From an uncultured Flavobacteriaceae bacterium (GTDB lineage Bacteria > Bacteroidota > Bacteroidia > Flavobacteriales > Flavobacteriaceae), in NCBI GenBank assembly GCA_947501845.1, contig CANMXP010000003.1:248001-312000 (forward strand): a stretch of DNA of 64,000 bases. Reading direction: 5' to 3'. The position numbers and the translations under genes were made by a program. Position 1 is the first letter of the stretch. Each line of letters starts with the position of its first letter. The notes beneath the pieces were generated by a model, which was not told where the DNA came from, made no database searches, and saw only the letters and a list, made by a program, of their open reading frames with translations. Shown here piece after piece: positions 14,106 through 37,897 of the stretch.

Positions 14106-16970
14106 ATGAAATACCATTTCAACGAAATAGAAGCCAAATGGCAAAAGTATTGGGCAGAAAACCAAACGTTTAAAGCAGTTAATAATAGCGAAAAACCAAA
14201 ATACTATGTTTTGGATATGTTCCCTTATCCAAGTGGAGCGGGATTACACGTTGGACATCCACTAGGATATATAGCTTCAGATATTTATGCACGCTACAAA
14301 CGTCATCAAGGGTTTAATGTATTGCATCCACAAGGGTATGATAGTTTTGGTTTACCAGCCGAGCAGTATGCTATTCAAACTGGGCAACATCCAGCAATAA
14401 CGACTGCCGAAAATATAAAAACATATCGCAGACAGTTAGACCAAATAGGCTTTTCGTTCGATTGGTCTCGTGAAGTTAGAACATCAGATCCAAGCTATTA
14501 CAAATGGACACAGTGGATTTTTATCCAATTGTTTGAATCTTGGTATAATAATGCTACTAATAAAGCTGAAGATATTTCGAAGTTGGTCGCCATTTTTGAA
14601 GCAGAAGGAAACATAAATGTGAATGCATGTTGTGATGACGATGTTAAAACATTTTCTGCAGAAGAATGGCAAGGGTTTTCATCTGAAAAACAGCAAAAAA
14701 TATTACTACAATACAGGCTTACTTATTTAGCCGAAACGGAAGTAAACTGGTGCCCAGCATTAGGAACCGTTTTGGCGAATGATGAAATTATAAATGGTGT
14801 TTCAGAACGTGGCGGACATCCTGTAATTCGTAAAAAAATGACCCAGTGGAGCATGCGTATTTCTGCCTATGCGGAACGTTTGCTTCAAGGATTAGATAAG
14901 ATTGATTGGACAGACTCACTAAAGGAAAGCCAACGAAATTGGATTGGAAAATCTGTTGGGGCGTCTGTTTCTTTCAAGATTATTGCCGAAGGCAATAATC
15001 TTGAAAGAAACATTGAAGTGTTTACAACAAGACCCGATACCATTTTTGGAGTTTCATTCATGACCCTAGCACCAGAACATGAATTGGTATCACAAATAAC
15101 CACACCAGAACAAAAAGAAGCAGTAAACGCTTATATTCTAGCAACAGCAAAGCGTAGTGAGCGTGATAGAATGGCCGATGTAAAAACCATTTCGGGTGTA
15201 TTTACGGGTGCCTATGTAGAACACCCATTTACAAAAGAACCGATTCCTATTTGGATTGGCGACTATGTACTAGCGGGTTATGGCACAGGAGCGGTGATGT
15301 CGGTACCTTGTGGGGACCAACGTGATTACGATTTTGCAAAACATTTTGGTATTCCGATTCCGAATATTTTTGAAGGGGTCGATATATCTGAGGAAGCTTT
15401 TGCCGATAAAGAAAAAACGATCATAACCAATAGTGATTTCATTAACGGCATGAGCTATAAAAAAGCAACCAAACGTGTTATTTTCGAACTGGAACAGTTG
15501 GGACAAGGCCAAGGTAAAACCAATTATAGATTGCGTGATGCTGTATTTAGCAGGCAGCGTTATTGGGGAGAGCCATTTCCAGTATATTACGTTAATGGGA
15601 TGCCTCAAATGATCGTCAAAGAACATTTACCAATAAAATTACCAGAAGTTGAAAAATATTTACCAACCGAAACTGGAGAGCCACCATTAGGAAACGCTAC
15701 AGTTTGGGCTTGGGATACAAATACGAATCAAGTGGTAAGCAATGATCTTGTCACCCAGAGCGCAATCGAAGGGTCTCAGGATAACGGGATCTATCCACTT
15801 GAACTAAACACCATGCCAGGCTGGGCAGGAAGCTCATTTTATTTCAACAGGTACATGGATCCTGAAAATGATAATGAAATGGCATCTAAAGAAGCTTTAG
15901 ATTACTGGCAGGATGTCGATTTATATATAGGCGGAAGCGAGCATGCTACGGGACATTTATTATACTCTCGTTTTTGGCAAAAATTCTTGTTCGATAAAGA
16001 TGTTGTACCTGTTGACGAGTATGCTAAAAAGTTAATTAATCAAGGGATGATTTTGGGGACTAGTGCTATTGTATATCGCATTTCAGGAACTAATAAATAT
16101 GTTTCTAAAGGATTAAAAGATAGTTATGATGTTGAAGAAATAAGAGTTGATGTTAATATGGTTAATGCTTCAGATGAAATTAATATAGAAGCATTAAAAA
16201 ATTGGCAGCCACAATTTAGTGATGCTGAATTTATTTTGGAAGGAGATAATTATATCGTTGGTAGAGAAGTTGAAAAAATGTCTAAACGTTGGTTTAATGT
16301 TGTCAACCCAGACAATATTTGCGAGCAGTATGGAGCAGACAGCTTAAGACTTTACGAAATGTTCTTAGGTCCTTTAGAGCAATACAAACCCTGGAATACA
16401 TCAGGTATTACAGGGGTACATTCATTCTTGAAAAAACTTTGGAAACTTTACCATCAAGGAGAAAATGGAGCTTTTTACGTAACGAGTTCCACTCCTTCGG
16501 AGGGGCTAGGGGAGGCTCTTAAAACCCTTCATAAAACGATTAAAAAGGTACAAGAAGATATAGAGAATTTCTCGTTTAATACGTCCGTATCTACTTTTAT
16601 GATTGCTGTTAATGAGTTAACGGCTCAAAAATGTACAAGTAAAGCCATTCTTGAACCGCTATTAATTTTAATTTCACCTTATGCACCACATATTGCAGAA
16701 GAATTATGGAATCAATTGGGGCATGATGAATCTATTTCAACGGCAGAATTTCCAAAATTTGATGGTAGCCATTTAGTAGAAAGCAGTAAAAACTACCCCA
16801 TTTCATTCAATGGAAAAATGCGTTTTACACTAGAACTACCATTAGATATGAGCAAAGATGATATAGAAAAAACAGTTTTAGAACACGAAAAAACGAAAGA
16901 ACAATTACAGGGACGTGAACCTAAAAAAGTCATTGTAGTTCCAGGAAAAATAGTCAATATTGTTGGGTAA
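14106..16970 (+). CDS. leuS: Leucyl-tRNA synthetase with three repeat-derived insertions
   Basis: 954 residues. A class I synthetase that charges tRNA-Leu. The HIGH-type motif HVGH is at 48-51 (after MFPYPSGAGL) and KMSKR at 724-728. The editing domain is marked by TTRPDTIFGVSFM. Three short stretches depart from the family pattern. The one near residues 287-303 comes from a perfect hairpin (14966-15012). The one near 548-560 (LVTQSAIEGSQDN) comes from a dispersed repeat. The one near 794-804 (SSTPSEGLGEA) comes from a CTCCTTCGGAGGGG-type repeat. All keep the frame and avoid catalytic motifs. Flavobacterial LeuRS is long anyway, so the length alone is not diagnostic. It is followed after 38 bases by a DUF302 gene. 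Confidence 0.97.
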   Translation: MKYHFNEIEAKWQKYWAENQTFKAVNNSEKPKYYVLDMFPYPSGAGLHVGHPLGYIASDIYARYKRHQGFNVLHPQGYDSFGLPAEQYAIQTGQHPAITTAENIKTYRRQLDQIGFSFDWSREVRTSDPSYYKWTQWIFIQLFESWYNNATNKAEDISKLVAIFEAEGNINVNACCDDDVKTFSAEEWQGFSSEKQQKILLQYRLTYLAETEVNWCPALGTVLANDEIINGVSERGGHPVIRKKMTQWSMRISAYAERLLQGLDKIDWTDSLKESQRNWIGKSVGASVSFKIIAEGNNLERNIEVFTTRPDTIFGVSFMTLAPEHELVSQITTPEQKEAVNAYILATAKRSERDRMADVKTISGVFTGAYVEHPFTKEPIPIWIGDYVLAGYGTGAVMSVPCGDQRDYDFAKHFGIPIPNIFEGVDISEEAFADKEKTIITNSDFINGMSYKKATKRVIFELEQLGQGQGKTNYRLRDAVFSRQRYWGEPFPVYYVNGMPQMIVKEHLPIKLPEVEKYLPTETGEPPLGNATVWAWDTNTNQVVSNDLVTQSAIEGSQDNGIYPLELNTMPGWAGSSFYFNRYMDPENDNEMASKEALDYWQDVDLYIGGSEHATGHLLYSRFWQKFLFDKDVVPVDEYAKKLINQGMILGTSAIVYRISGTNKYVSKGLKDSYDVEEIRVDVNMVNASDEINIEALKNWQPQFSDAEFILEGDNYIVGREVEKMSKRWFNVVNPDNICEQYGADSLRLYEMFLGPLEQYKPWNTSGITGVHSFLKKLWKLYHQGENGAFYVTSSTPSEGLGEALKTLHKTIKKVQEDIENFSFNTSVSTFMIAVNELTAQKCTSKAILEPLLILISPYAPHIAEELWNQLGHDESISTAEFPKFDGSHLVESSKNYPISFNGKMRFTLELPLDMSKDDIEKTVLEHEKTKEQLQGREPKKVIVVPGKIVNIVG
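14966..15012. repeat. Perfect 22-bp-arm palindrome inside leuS
   Basis: Left arm 14966-14987 and right arm 14991-15012 are exact reverse complements with a 3-base loop (GAA). The centre reads ATTATTGCC-GAA-GGCAATAAT. It encodes VSFKIIAEGNNLERN at the start of the editing-domain insertion. Coding DNA rarely holds such a long perfect palindrome by chance. Confidence 0.95.
15748..15776. repeat. Dispersed repeat inside leuS
   Basis: TTGTCACCCAGAGCG followed by CAATCGAAGGGTCT contains the core GAGCGCAATCGAAG, which matches the tandem units in truB at 13 of 14 positions. ACCC and GGGT form short inverted ends. It encodes LVTQSAIEGS. Confidence 0.65.
16488..16517. repeat. GC-rich palindromic repeat inside leuS
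   Basis: CTCCTTCGGAGGGG, then CTAGGGGAGGCTC. CTCC-TTCG-GAGG forms a tight hairpin with a UUCG-like loop. The composition is much richer in G+C than the surrounding gene. A related but weaker CTCCTTTGGAGG lies after the TonB receptor gene (about 1285-1298). Confidence 0.65.
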
Positions 16971-20815: not shown

Positions 20816-20868
20816 TTTCTCAATTTGAAAAATTCCTCGATGCGATGCTTAGAGGTCATTTATGAAAT

Positions 20869-20896
20869 TGTCATTCTCGGTAATGCGGGAATTTAA
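20869..20896. repeat. Palindromic repeat before the MutS-like gene
   Basis: GTCATTCTCGGTAATGCGGGAAT forms a 7-bp stem (ATTCTCG / CGGGAAT, one G-U). It resembles GTCATTCCCGC...GCGGGAAT repeats seen in many bacteria. An open frame runs through it, but the ATG at 20910 just after it is the better start. Confidence 0.45.
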
Positions 20897-20909
20897 ATTA
20901 AAATTTAAG

Positions 20910-22679
20910 ATGGATAGTCCGATACCATATTATAAAGAACACTTAGAAAAATACCAATCTGAAGCCCAAAGGTTGTTCAAAAAAATGACGGCCTTGAGTA
21001 TGTTAAGACTATCTGTGTTTTTGATAACAGGATTTGGTGTCTATTTCACATTTCAGTATTGGCAAGTTGCTATGGTTCTTGCTATTATTGGTATTGCCGT
21101 ATTTGTTTTTTTATTGTCGAAATACACCGATATAAAAGGGCAAAGAAATTTTAATAAAGCTTTGGTCAAAATAAACGAAGAAGAAATTAAAATAGCTTCT
21201 GGCGATTTTCATGAACGAGATAAAGGTTTGCAGTTTCAAGACCCTACGCATTTTTATAGTTTGGATATTGATTTGTTTGGTCGCGGTTCTTTTTTTCAAT
21301 TTATTAATAGAACGACCATCAATGAAGGTAGCCAAAAGTTAGCAGATGCTTTAAAAGCAAATCATATTGACGCTATTGAGTTGCGCCAAGAGGCTATAAA
21401 AGAATTGAGCTCTAAACCAAAATGGCGACAATACTATTCGGCTACATCGAGTTTAGTTACCGTTGAAACACCTGCTAAAAATATTATAAGCTGGTTGCAA
21501 AGCTATCAATCCTTTTTGCCTAAAGTGATGCAATGGTTACCAATAACATTTGTTGTATGTTCAATCCTTATATTGGGCTTAACAGTTTTAAACTTTGTAA
21601 ACCCAGAATTTATAGGGTATTGGCTGCTTTTGGGACTAGGTATTACAGGTGTTTATGTTAAAAAAACTAATGTTTTGTCTTCAAATACAGATAGGGTTAA
21701 AGATACCTTTCGTCAATATGCACTGCTATTAGATTTAATAGAAAACGAAACCTTTACTTCAGAATTATTACAAGAAAAGCAACAGCAGATTCAATTAGAT
21801 ACAGAAAAAGCATCCCACATTTTTAAGAAGCTTTCAAAATCGTTAGACGCTTTAGATAATAGAAATAATATTATAGGTGCTATTTTTGGGAATGGGTTAT
21901 TTCTAACGGACATAAAAAACGGTTATAACATCGAAAAATGGATTGAACAATATCATGCTAAGGTTGCCGATTGGTTTGAAATTGTATCGTTTTTTGATGC
22001 CTATAATTCACTGGGGAATTTTGCTTTTAATCGTCCAGAATTTATATACCCAGAAATACAGGAAAAAGGAGCTGTTATTAGTGCCAATAGTTTAGGGCAT
22101 CCTTTATTAGATAAAAGTAAACGAGTCGATAGTGATTTAACAATAAAAAATGAGCAATTCTTTATTGTAACAGGAGCAAATATGGCAGGAAAAAGCACCT
22201 TTTTACGTACCGTGTCTTTACATATTGTTATGGCTAATGTTGGTCTTCCTATCTGTGCTAAATCAAGTAAATATTCGCCAGTAAAATTAATTACCAGCAT
22301 GCGAACAACAGATTCTCTAACAGATGACAGTTCGTATTTCTTTTCAGAATTAACCCGTCTAAAATATATAGTGGATGCTATTCAAAAAGAACCTTATTTT
22401 ATTGTTTTAGATGAAATTTTGAAAGGAACAAATAGTACCGACAAAGCTATCGGTTCCAGGAAATTTGTAGAGAAACTGGTAGCTTCGAATGCCACTGGTA
22501 TCATTGCGACTCACGATTTGAGTTTATGTGAAATTGAACAAGAACTTGAAGATGTGAAAAACTACTATTTTGATGCCGAAATTATTAATGATGAGCTTCA
22601 TTTCGATTATAAACTAAAAGTTGGGATTTGTCAAAATATGAATGCTTCTTTTCTTTTAAAGAAGATGGATATTGTTTAG
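20910..22679 (+). CDS. Membrane-anchored MutS-like ATPase
   Basis: 589 residues from the ATG at 20910. An upstream ATG (20862) would add 16 residues encoded by a repeat. The C-terminal half is a MutS-type ATPase: Walker A GANMAGKSTFLRT (about 421-433), the MutS motif MRTTDSLTDDSSYFFSEL, Walker B FIVLDEILKGTNS (about 510) and ATHDLSLCE. The N-terminal half lacks mismatch-recognition and clamp domains. Instead it has two paired hydrophobic segments (about 36-75 and 205-250), so the ATPase should sit on the inner membrane. Such MutS-like proteins are widespread in Bacteroidota and their role is unknown; a mismatch repair role is doubtful. Confidence 0.88.
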   Translation: MDSPIPYYKEHLEKYQSEAQRLFKKMTALSMLRLSVFLITGFGVYFTFQYWQVAMVLAIIGIAVFVFLLSKYTDIKGQRNFNKALVKINEEEIKIASGDFHERDKGLQFQDPTHFYSLDIDLFGRGSFFQFINRTTINEGSQKLADALKANHIDAIELRQEAIKELSSKPKWRQYYSATSSLVTVETPAKNIISWLQSYQSFLPKVMQWLPITFVVCSILILGLTVLNFVNPEFIGYWLLLGLGITGVYVKKTNVLSSNTDRVKDTFRQYALLLDLIENETFTSELLQEKQQQIQLDTEKASHIFKKLSKSLDALDNRNNIIGAIFGNGLFLTDIKNGYNIEKWIEQYHAKVADWFEIVSFFDAYNSLGNFAFNRPEFIYPEIQEKGAVISANSLGHPLLDKSKRVDSDLTIKNEQFFIVTGANMAGKSTFLRTVSLHIVMANVGLPICAKSSKYSPVKLITSMRTTDSLTDDSSYFFSELTRLKYIVDAIQKEPYFIVLDEILKGTNSTDKAIGSRKFVEKLVASNATGIIATHDLSLCEIEQELEDVKNYYFDAEIINDELHFDYKLKVGICQNMNASFLLKKMDIV

Positions 22680-22688
22680 TTATCTACC

Positions 22689-22740
22689 GTCACTTCGAGT
22701 AAATTTGAGAAGTGAAACGGAACAAATTTGTATCGAGAAG
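22689..22740. repeat. Repeat copy A1, upstream of the GIY-YIG gene
   Basis: Begins GTCACTTCGAGTAAATTT and ends AAATTTGTATCGAGAAG; an imperfect palindrome of 52 bases. It matches copy A2 at 23126-23176. The end GTATCGAGA (22730-22738) is the exact reverse complement of TCTCGATAC at 23049-23057, on the other side of the gene. Confidence 0.8.
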
Positions 22741-22754
22741 TCAATTCTTAAATT

Positions 22755-23048
22755 ATGAAAGCATATTATGTTTATATTTTAAAATGTTCTGACGGTACTT
22801 ATTATACTGGGTTTACTTCAAATTTAGAACAACGTTTTATAGCTCACAAAGGAGGAAAACATAAGGATAGTTATACTTATTCAAGAAGACCCTTGTCTTT
22901 GGCTTATTATGCTGAATTTACTGATCCAGGCCTGGGAATTGCAACCGAAAAGCAAATAAAAAAATGGTCTAAGAAGAAAAAGGAAGCTTTGATAAACAAT
23001 GCGTATGAAAAATTACCAAACCTTTCAAAGAAAAATTTCAAAAAATAG
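22755..23048 (+). CDS. Small GIY-YIG endonuclease family protein
   Basis: 97 residues, the minimal single-domain GIY-YIG fold. Tyr-Val-Tyr (5-7) and Tyr-Tyr-Thr-Gly (16-19) stand for the GIY...YIG signature. The catalytic Arg is Arg27 (EQRFIAHK) and the metal-binding Glu is Glu65 (IATEKQIKKW). A Lys-rich C-terminus (WSKKKKEALI to SKKNFKK) may bind nucleic acid. These small proteins (often called UPF0213/YhbQ-like) have no settled role. Here the gene is framed by 9-bp inverted repeats that begin directly after the stop codon and end 16 bases before the start. That suggests the nuclease acts on, or moves with, these repeats. Confidence 0.9.
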   Translation: MKAYYVYILKCSDGTYYTGFTSNLEQRFIAHKGGKHKDSYTYSRRPLSLAYYAEFTDPGLGIATEKQIKKWSKKKKEALINNAYEKLPNLSKKNFKK

Positions 23049-23088
23049 GTCTCGATACTATTCTGTAAAAAAACAGAATCACTCGACC
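23046..23088. repeat. Repeat hairpin B at the end of the GIY-YIG gene
   Basis: AGGTCTCGATACTATTCTGT, a six-A loop, ACAGAATCACTCGACCT. The inner stem ATTCTGT/ACAGAAT is perfect and the outer stem is imperfect. It starts within the stop codon of the GIY-YIG gene. It carries TCTCGATAC in the opposite orientation to the GTATCGAGA of copies A1 and A2. Confidence 0.75.
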
Positions 23089-23125
23089 TGACAACCTAGT
23101 TCGTAATTTGGTTTAGAGTTTTATT

Positions 23126-23176
23126 GTCACTTCGAGTAATTTTATTGAGTGAGCGAAATTAAATTGTATCGAGAAG
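23126..23176. repeat. Repeat copy A2, downstream of the GIY-YIG gene
   Basis: Begins GTCACTTCGAGTAATTTT and ends AAATTGTATCGAGAAG. It has the same orientation, ends and length as copy A1 (22689-22740), with differences mainly in the centre. It stops two bases before the stop codon of the convergent gene. Confidence 0.8.
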
Positions 23177-23178
23177 GC

Positions 23179-24072
23179 TTATTTCCTCTCTAATCTCACT
23201 TTTTCAATCATATTAACAGTATTTTCATCATCAGGTTTTATACTTAGTGCTTTGTAATAGTTTTTAAGAGCATCTATATAATTTTTAGTCATAAAATAAG
23301 CTTCTCCCAAGCTATCATATGTATTATACTTATAAGGAAAAATCTTTGTGTTTAAATCAAAAATATATAAGGCCTTTTTGGTTTGCTTAGAACTTAAAAG
23401 CGAATAGCCATACGTGTTAAGTTCTTTACTTCCTTTTACAAGCTCTGCTAACTTAGAAACTAATTTGGGTTCTTCTAATTTTAAATTACTTATGGATTTG
23501 GAGTTGAGTAAATTATCTATATAATTAACACCCATATAATTTGAAGTATATGTTTCATTAGAAACAATCTTAAGAATATCACGTTCTAAAGTTTCCTTGG
23601 GAGACTCTACAATTCGATTAATTTCTTTACCATCTTTATAAAAAATAAAAGTGGGCACGCGATGTATATTTAAGCCTTTTTCTTCATGATTCGGGCTTTG
23701 TTTATAAGCTTCATCAGTTCTGTTAACTGCGATGGCTTTTAATTGAATTTCTGGAAAATTGGCAGCATCTAAAACTTTATAAAATCTAGGAACTTCTCGT
23801 TTGCTATCACGACACCAGGTTCCTAAAAACACCTTGATTTCATAATCTTTTAATGAGGTTTTTAATAGCTTCACAACTTTTTTATTAACCAAGTAATCCT
23901 TGTAGTTTTTATAAAACCATTTATTAAAGCTGTTTTTTGTTAATCCGTTTCTGTTTATTTCACCAAGTAAAAGGGGGGTGCCCTTCTCATCTAAAGAAAG
24001 ATTGTTTAATGTTTGAGAAAATCCTAAGTGTAGTGTAAATAAAAGGGTCAAGCAGATAATTGTTTGTTTCAT
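23179..24072 (-). CDS. Secreted thioredoxin-like protein with TPR domain
   Basis: 297 residues. A Sec signal peptide (MKQTIICLTLLFTLHLGFSQ, cleavage near residue 20) directs it to the periplasm. A thioredoxin fold follows, with FLGTWCRDSKREVPRF (near residue 80) in place of CxxC. Only one Cys remains, so disulfide chemistry is altered. The C-terminal about 90 residues contain tetratricopeptide repeats (AYFMTKNYIDALKNYYKALS). It may be a periplasmic scaffold or monothiol protein. The gene is divergent from the sensor kinase gene, and its 3' end abuts a repeat copy. Confidence 0.85.
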   Translation of the reverse strand: MKQTIICLTLLFTLHLGFSQTLNNLSLDEKGTPLLLGEINRNGLTKNSFNKWFYKNYKDYLVNKKVVKLLKTSLKDYEIKVFLGTWCRDSKREVPRFYKVLDAANFPEIQLKAIAVNRTDEAYKQSPNHEEKGLNIHRVPTFIFYKDGKEINRIVESPKETLERDILKIVSNETYTSNYMGVNYIDNLLNSKSISNLKLEEPKLVSKLAELVKGSKELNTYGYSLLSSKQTKKALYIFDLNTKIFPYKYNTYDSLGEAYFMTKNYIDALKNYYKALSIKPDDENTVNMIEKVRLERK

Positions 24073-37835: not shown

Positions 37836-37841
37836 GTCAAA

Positions 37842-37880
37842 TAAAAAAGGGATGATTTTACTAAAATCATCCCTTTTTTA
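37842..37880. terminator. Bidirectional terminator between pckA and hemD
   Basis: An 18-bp perfect stem (TAAAAAAGGGATGATTTT and its reverse complement) with a 3-base loop (ACT). A- and T-runs at the two ends suit termination from both sides, as needed by the convergent pckA and hemD genes. Confidence 0.88.
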
Positions 37881-37897
37881 TTTATAATTATATAACG

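Follow-up and report, generated by a model that had tools for sequence, protein, structure and literature searches.

A small GIY-YIG nuclease gene framed by inverted copies of a tagged palindromic repeat, a candidate enzyme partner for REP-like elements

REPs carrying a CGTC or TGTC tag were reported in 2013 as apparently without a dedicated transposase (Di Nocera 2013, PMC3733652). The accessible part of that paper includes dRS3 of Neisseria and RPE-4 and RPE-6 of Rickettsia in this class, and gives as its features an unpaired CGTC or TGTC at one end, a stem of 8 to 9 bp and a short tail. It also states that REPtrons may be absent from species with GTAG REPs (PMC3733652). Three small COG2827 genes have been described in Caulobacter, questions about which are left open in the available portion of the source (PMC1839093). 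A literature search, with most subscription journals outside its reach, returned no paper linking GIY-YIG genes with dispersed palindromes. In the text available for PMC12306157 and PMC6006769, a term search found no occurrence of 'GIY'; the excerpts of PMC12455944 and PMC11404850 mention GIY-YIG in other contexts.

The window, a 64,000-nucleotide stretch of DNA from an uncultured Flavobacteriaceae bacterium, contains an ORF of 97 codons plus stop whose sole Pfam match is PF01541 (GIY-YIG; E 1.9e-15), at the coordinates proposed in the initial annotation and with the catalytic Tyr, Arg and Glu reported there. NCBIfam assigned no family to the protein, which is probably a small, active GIY-YIG endonuclease. 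Elements A1 and A2 (51-52 nt, AT-rich, with a bulged stem) lie exactly where they had been placed and are direct copies of a GTCA-tagged palindrome, the tag reading TGTC at A2. The outer arms of A1 are CTTCGAGT and GTATCGAGAAG and its inner stem is variable; GTATCGAGA was found at 22730-22738, as described. The matching TCTCGATAC is present 3' of the gene, at 23050-23058 instead of the proposed 23049-23057, so that one base (G) separates it from the stop codon. A second hairpin type, B, had been regarded as separate from TCTCGATAC, an assignment that we revise: both are parts of a third A-family copy, which is inverted and whose reverse complement begins GTCAGGTCGAGTG and finishes GTATCGAGA. 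Its outer ends are identical to those of A1 and A2 and its inner stem is different. Thus, the gene sits between A1 and the inverted A copy, with A2 outside. Feature coordinates are collected in Table 1.

Table 1. Features of the nuclease locus and its surroundings in the window.
Feature	Position	Strand	Remarks
MutS-domain-V protein gene	20862..22679	+	Upstream edge of the site compared for presence/absence
A1, tagged palindromic element upstream of GIY-YIG gene	22689..22740	+	CGTC tag, using the C at 22688
GIY-YIG endonuclease gene, 97 aa	22755..23048	+	ORF and Pfam; Y7, Y17, G19, R27, H31 and E65 present
Inverted A copy, 3' of GIY-YIG gene	23050..23092	-	Hairpin 'B' of the initial annotation
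A2, outer direct copy of A1	23126..23176	+	Ends just short of the convergent gene's stop codon
Thioredoxin/TPR protein gene	23179..24072	-	Stop codon 23179-23181; downstream edge of the compared site in this genome

Folded singly, A1 and A2 performed no better than shuffled sequences (z -1.0 and -0.2, respectively), and comparative pairing was therefore used instead; positions 23049-23090, nearly the whole inverted A copy, did fold better than shuffles (z -3.8). The evidence for the predicted hairpin in element A is accordingly comparative. Elsewhere in the window, a perfect 22-nt inverted repeat with a 3-nt loop lies at 14966-15012 inside a leucyl-tRNA synthetase ORF (14106-16970), and a second with a 1-nt spacer, at 37839-37883, could be a bidirectional terminator.

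Small GIY-YIG matches were present in all 12 genomes of the genus (G000, the genome of the window, to G011), at 3 to 14 per genome; the genus set discussed below comprises 32 of the 92 listed places, those with loci extracted. Window-class orthologs, 69-88% identical, were identified in G001, G003, G004, G006, G007 and G011. All six possess a class-A element upstream, so the orthologs in the genus do have the repeats. In five of these six intact orthologs an inverted class-A copy follows one base 3' of the stop codon; the exception, G004, has a diverged downstream hairpin without the class-A outer motif.

Class-A copies were counted genome-wide with the pattern TTCGAGT-N(4,34)-GTATCGAGAA. The reversed pattern gave no match in any of the 12 genomes, indicating that the copies are not chance occurrences. 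The genomes with an intact gene (G000, G001, G003, G004, G006, G007 and G011) contain 6, 23, 10, 11, 8, 9 and 9 copies, and those without one (G002, G005, G008, G009 and G010) contain 1, 2, 3, 3 and 2. This separation is complete (6-23, n=7, versus 1-3, n=5; exact p 0.0013) and is retained when gene-adjacent copies are removed (4-21 versus 0-3, p 0.0027), both values being uncorrected for shared ancestry. G002, with its single copy, encodes an 88-aa version of the gene carrying the substitutions G19S and R27H. The element is dispersed, as had been claimed, though its dispersal in the window's own genome is modest, the pattern matching 6 times in 5.4 Mb (3 times in a stricter form).

The 55 distinct class-A elements fall into 12 groups according to the inner arm. 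Among 12 representatives, 5.5 of the inner six positions pair within an element, versus 3.0 when arms are re-paired between elements, a level of pairing reached by none of 20000 shuffles. Judged by this comparison, the putative inner stem turns over yet stays paired; the outer motif is fixed because the search pattern demands it. In three places, G008:C12:62661-63941, G009:C9:151779-152611 and G076:C86:45030-46143, three GIY-YIG matches lie in a row, some of them with an internal stop.

Used as a query against its own genome, the window protein gave eight matches at seven places, and the flanks of each were read. At five of the seven, the gene lies between inverted palindromes tagged with GTC or GTCA, each of a different class; the window class is itself rare in this genome. 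The gene on C1 is flanked by a short inverted pair that lacks a clear tag, and that on C10 (L008, G000:C10:113815-114060) lies beside a tRNA-Leu gene without inverted tagged framing. A small GIY-YIG gene of G010 (L029, C1, match 124047-124268) similarly adjoins a tRNA-Arg gene. At both tRNA loci a partial copy of the 5' part of the tRNA, broken by a CCTGCC-type palindrome, lies upstream, an arrangement that looks like a cassette targeting tRNA genes. When ORFs in 1.65 Mb of the genome were ranked by repeated 13-mers on both sides, three of the seven GIY-YIG genes were equalled by just 7-9 of 1329 other ORFs, while the other four had no repeated 13-mers on at least one side; this ranking overlooks low-copy repeat classes.

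Framing of this kind extends well beyond the genus. A wider set of 88 loci was assembled from the best 80 of at least 561 confirmed relatives, obtained by profile search of genome contigs, together with eight plasmid-collection loci; the best 80 derive from Bacteroidota, Pseudomonadota, Patescibacteria, Planctomycetota, Chloroflexota, Spirochaetota and others. An inverted pair was defined as an inverted match scoring at least 24 between the 200-nt flanks. Such a pair was found at 72 of the 87 small GIY-YIG loci with enough flank, versus 49 of the 810 remaining ORFs at these loci (Fisher 6.6e-58); the repeats are thus not equally near all genes. It could be argued that dispensable small genes and palindromes simply gather in tolerant intergenic regions with no functional link, given that both are intergenic and that 36 of the 146 loci scored across all sets have no identity-detectable pair. 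Against this stand stricter controls, flanked on each side by 80 nt or more of non-ORF sequence, of which 17 of 209 have an inverted pair (5e-37 versus 72/87), as do 3 of 57 when such controls are limited to at most 150 aa. The coupling of protein to repeat class described below is also unexpected under hitch-hiking, which we disfavour as highly improbable.

Outward-facing YGTCA tags on both sides characterise 71% of GIY-YIG loci versus 9.8% of controls, and the excess of inward-facing tags is smaller (55% and 44% on the two sides, versus 30%). Direct-orientation flank matches are frequent too (53/87 versus 64/810 controls), since palindromes and multiple copies would yield them; hence finding the repeat on each side of the gene says more than its inversion does. 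With all sets pooled, 110 of 146 loci pass, as do 55 of the 78 representatives left after clustering at 70% protein identity; by set, the figures are 72/87 for the wider set, 18/32 for the genus and 20/28 for a Bacteroidota sample. The 146 were drawn from 149 loci, leaving out L100 (a fused ORF) and two with less than 100 nt of flank; the Bacteroidota sample comprises 29 loci, with L187 short of flank and L159 omitted as the same locus as L005. The identity score underrates pairs with compensating stem changes, the window itself scoring 23.

[CT]GTC occurs at both outer ends of 52 of 111 pairs (54 upstream, 59 downstream), the chance per end being 11%. The downstream element often begins a short way past the stop codon (median 16 nt). 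Residues Y7, Y17, G19, R27, H31 and E65 are retained in 133-134 of the 135 proteins without internal stops. At two loci, L045 (base 1492, + strand) and L046 (base 1492 of the reverse complement, match on the - strand), the GIY-YIG frame continues to 426-458 aa through a linker peptide, VTERSRS, that resembles a translated repeat element. We take the remainder of this long frame to resemble a GHMP kinase; in L045, Pfam detects GIY-YIG alone. Planktothrix agardhii has a small GIY-YIG gene (L051, 2992-3276) whose neighbours are an MmeI-type restriction gene on one side and the DISARM gene drmA on the other.

The relationship between enzyme and repeat was assessed by scoring repeat sharing (score of at least 30) between loci in non-homologous surroundings. 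Sharing rose over six bins of protein identity, from <30% to >70%, as 1, 1, 3, 12, 29 and 79%, kinship being ignored, and the observed protein-repeat correlation was reached by none of 1000 permutations, in which shared ancestry was unmodelled. Pairs from different genera, with genus labels assigned by hand, gave 0, 5, 12, 28 and 77% over five bins, again ignoring kinship. The contrast is less marked among Bradyrhizobium loci, where a repeat is shared by 14 of 17 pairs whose proteins are at least 70% identical and by 24 of 55 pairs below 65%. By and large, each GIY-YIG lineage is paired with a repeat class of its own, and several such pairs are possible in one genome.

The coupling has exceptions. 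We surveyed 296 Bacteroidota genomes for the pattern GTCATNCC-N(4,16)-GGNATCC and for small GIY-YIG genes at E 1e-8; a small GIY-YIG gene was present in 32 of the 36 genomes with at least eight pattern copies versus 153 of the 260 others (Fisher 3.6e-4; the 36 counted by hand). The four exceptions, G282, G143, G089 and G239, all of one Bacteroidota family, contain 13-124 pattern copies, and their GIY-YIG genes are all UvrC-sized. In G282 (13% contamination), two of the 124 copies fell in the stretches read, both of the GTCATTCCGAGCG type; the stretches read in G143 and G089 contained no pattern copy. A further genome, G170, has 243 copies, of which the five read are of the GTCATTCCTGC type, and its single small GIY-YIG gene is framed by another class, of the GTCATTCTGAACG type. 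From these four exceptions and G170, it follows that repeats can exist, even in large numbers, without a matching gene.

Presence and absence of the gene were compared at fixed sites. Within the genus, the window-class gene occupies two unrelated sites, accompanied at both by the element class that belongs to it. At site I, which follows the MutS-like gene (760 nt, judged by eye), G000, G004 and G006 have the gene, G002 and G003 have relics of the gene end and the inverted element, and G001 and G007 have a lone class-A element. No class-A element was found there in G005, G008, G009, G010 or G011, some of which contain other repeat classes. At site II, upstream of a transporter-like gene, the gene is intact in G001, G003, G007 and G011, decayed in G002 and absent from the other seven genomes. 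Relatives thus have sites without the gene and repeats, and the reading put forward by the initial annotation, of a nuclease that would process or move its own flanking palindromes, is supported.

Beyond the genus, Azospirillum lipoferum 4B has a gene between sufB and sufC flanked by two pairs of inverted CGTC elements. Eleven other Azospirillum rows (H81-H91), among the matches listed with both query halves, cover 67-70% of the query with the middle missing, and in the four that were read the sufB-sufC gap is 55-129 bp; this comparison points to a gain of the suf cassette in A. lipoferum. The same suf junction is also occupied in Shinella sp. PSBB067, in a part of the record that carries no annotation; the GIY-YIG gene there differs visibly in sequence and its repeats are of another CGTC class, which suggests a separate event. 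Sinorhizobium K101 is without the cassette of S. meliloti Ak57; the flanks are 95-96% identical and one fused palindrome remains, a difference that a deletion between 9-bp direct repeats could also have produced. No target-site duplication was readable at site I, site II, or the Sinorhizobium or Azospirillum sites.

These sites bear on the possibility that the enzyme is domesticated, trimming or resolving repeat cruciforms or acting on repeat RNA for the host, with the framing serving autoregulation. Such a role would suit the proximity of the downstream element to the stop codon, the proposal, in the accessible part of its source, that REPs also act as RNA elements (PMC3733652), and the SOS box reported, in the portion available, at one of the three Caulobacter COG2827 genes (PMC1839093). 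The varying number of paralogs per genome, the decayed copies and relics, and the insertion within a suf operon look selfish and not like housekeeping, and we consider domestication improbable.

GIY-YIG is a classic homing endonuclease fold, and free-standing GIY-YIG homing endonucleases are selfish-looking and patchily distributed. The small nucleases might therefore be homing-type selfish genes that cut palindromes spread by some other process, land there and so end up between copies. The occurrence of repeats without a small GIY-YIG gene would fit this account, as would the gene-less site of Sinorhizobium K101 with its one fused palindrome. It is less easily reconciled with the prediction of repeat class from protein similarity at unrelated sites, with the tracking of gene integrity by copy number in the genus, or with flanks that, read by eye (uncounted), are mostly complete hairpins and not split halves. 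On balance we think homing rather unlikely.

The best explanation, and one that we hold to be fairly probable, is that the nuclease is a dedicated partner of its flanking palindrome, cutting its own repeat and spreading it. The elements share a YGTC tag and a short stem that pairs despite base changes, and some classes have a GA/TCGA asymmetry. The anatomy of the locus, the enrichment of repeats around the genes, the enzyme-repeat coupling, the stem covariation of the window's class, the conserved active site and the differing presence of cassettes among relatives are demonstrated here. We infer that the form of its own element most likely recognised by the enzyme would be an extruded hairpin or cruciform, which it would cut beside the YGTC tag, the break then being repaired from, or copied into, other sites. 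The element would spread as a result and, less often, so would the whole cassette of element, gene and inverted element. What RAYTs do for GTAG REPs, GIY-YIG nucleases probably do for these repeats, acting on them and spreading them.

The recurrence of an enzyme with a matching repeat in many phyla suggests the missing partner of a widespread repeat class. A candidate enzyme has now been located between CGTC repeats, including in Azospirillum lipoferum, Sinorhizobium meliloti and Novosphingobium aromaticivorans, species named in the accessible part of PMC3733652. More broadly, small GIY-YIG proteins may be the mobilising enzymes of CGTC/TGTC and related repeats in many phyla, a second, independently evolved REP system whose lineages co-evolve each with its own hairpin class; we regard the case for this wider proposal as evenly poised. 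If true, it would extend REP biology to a second enzyme class and assign a function to many small genes annotated just as 'GIY-YIG nuclease family protein' or 'excinuclease ABC subunit C'. A single protein and a handful of oligonucleotides would now be enough to test the question of the enzyme.

Among known proteins, the closest by sequence profile are the small GIY-YIG proteins of UPF0213/COG2827, to which the window family is homologous: a search of profile A3 against PDB sequences gave two matches at E ≤0.001, both UPF0213 (1zg2, 6.8e-16; 1ywl, 7.1e-11). A link of UPF0213/COG2827 to repeats was absent from the papers found. With free-standing GIY-YIG homing endonucleases, the genes described here share the catalytic fold and a selfish-looking, patchy distribution; they differ in being framed by their own dispersed repeat and not embedded in one conserved target gene. 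Four loci examined by eye (L005, L047, L048 and L049) have elements with the unpaired tag, 8-9 bp stem and short, mostly CCA-like tail of CGTC/TGTC REPs, L047-L049 coming from species named in the accessible part of PMC3733652. The window's A element, in contrast, is longer, AT-rich and bulged, and is therefore at most a relative of these REPs. The comparison with REPs and RAYTs drawn in the initial annotation is apt and reaches far past the genus. The enzyme here is a GIY-YIG nuclease whereas RAYT is a Y1 HUH transposase, and the tag is YGTC, elements read by eye starting with GTC, unlike that of GTAG REPs. As in the REP/REPIN-RAYT system (REPtrons, as described in the accessible part of PMC3733652), tagged imperfect palindromes accompany an enzyme gene framed by its own repeat class, several enzyme-repeat pairs can occur in one genome, and the repeats outnumber the genes.
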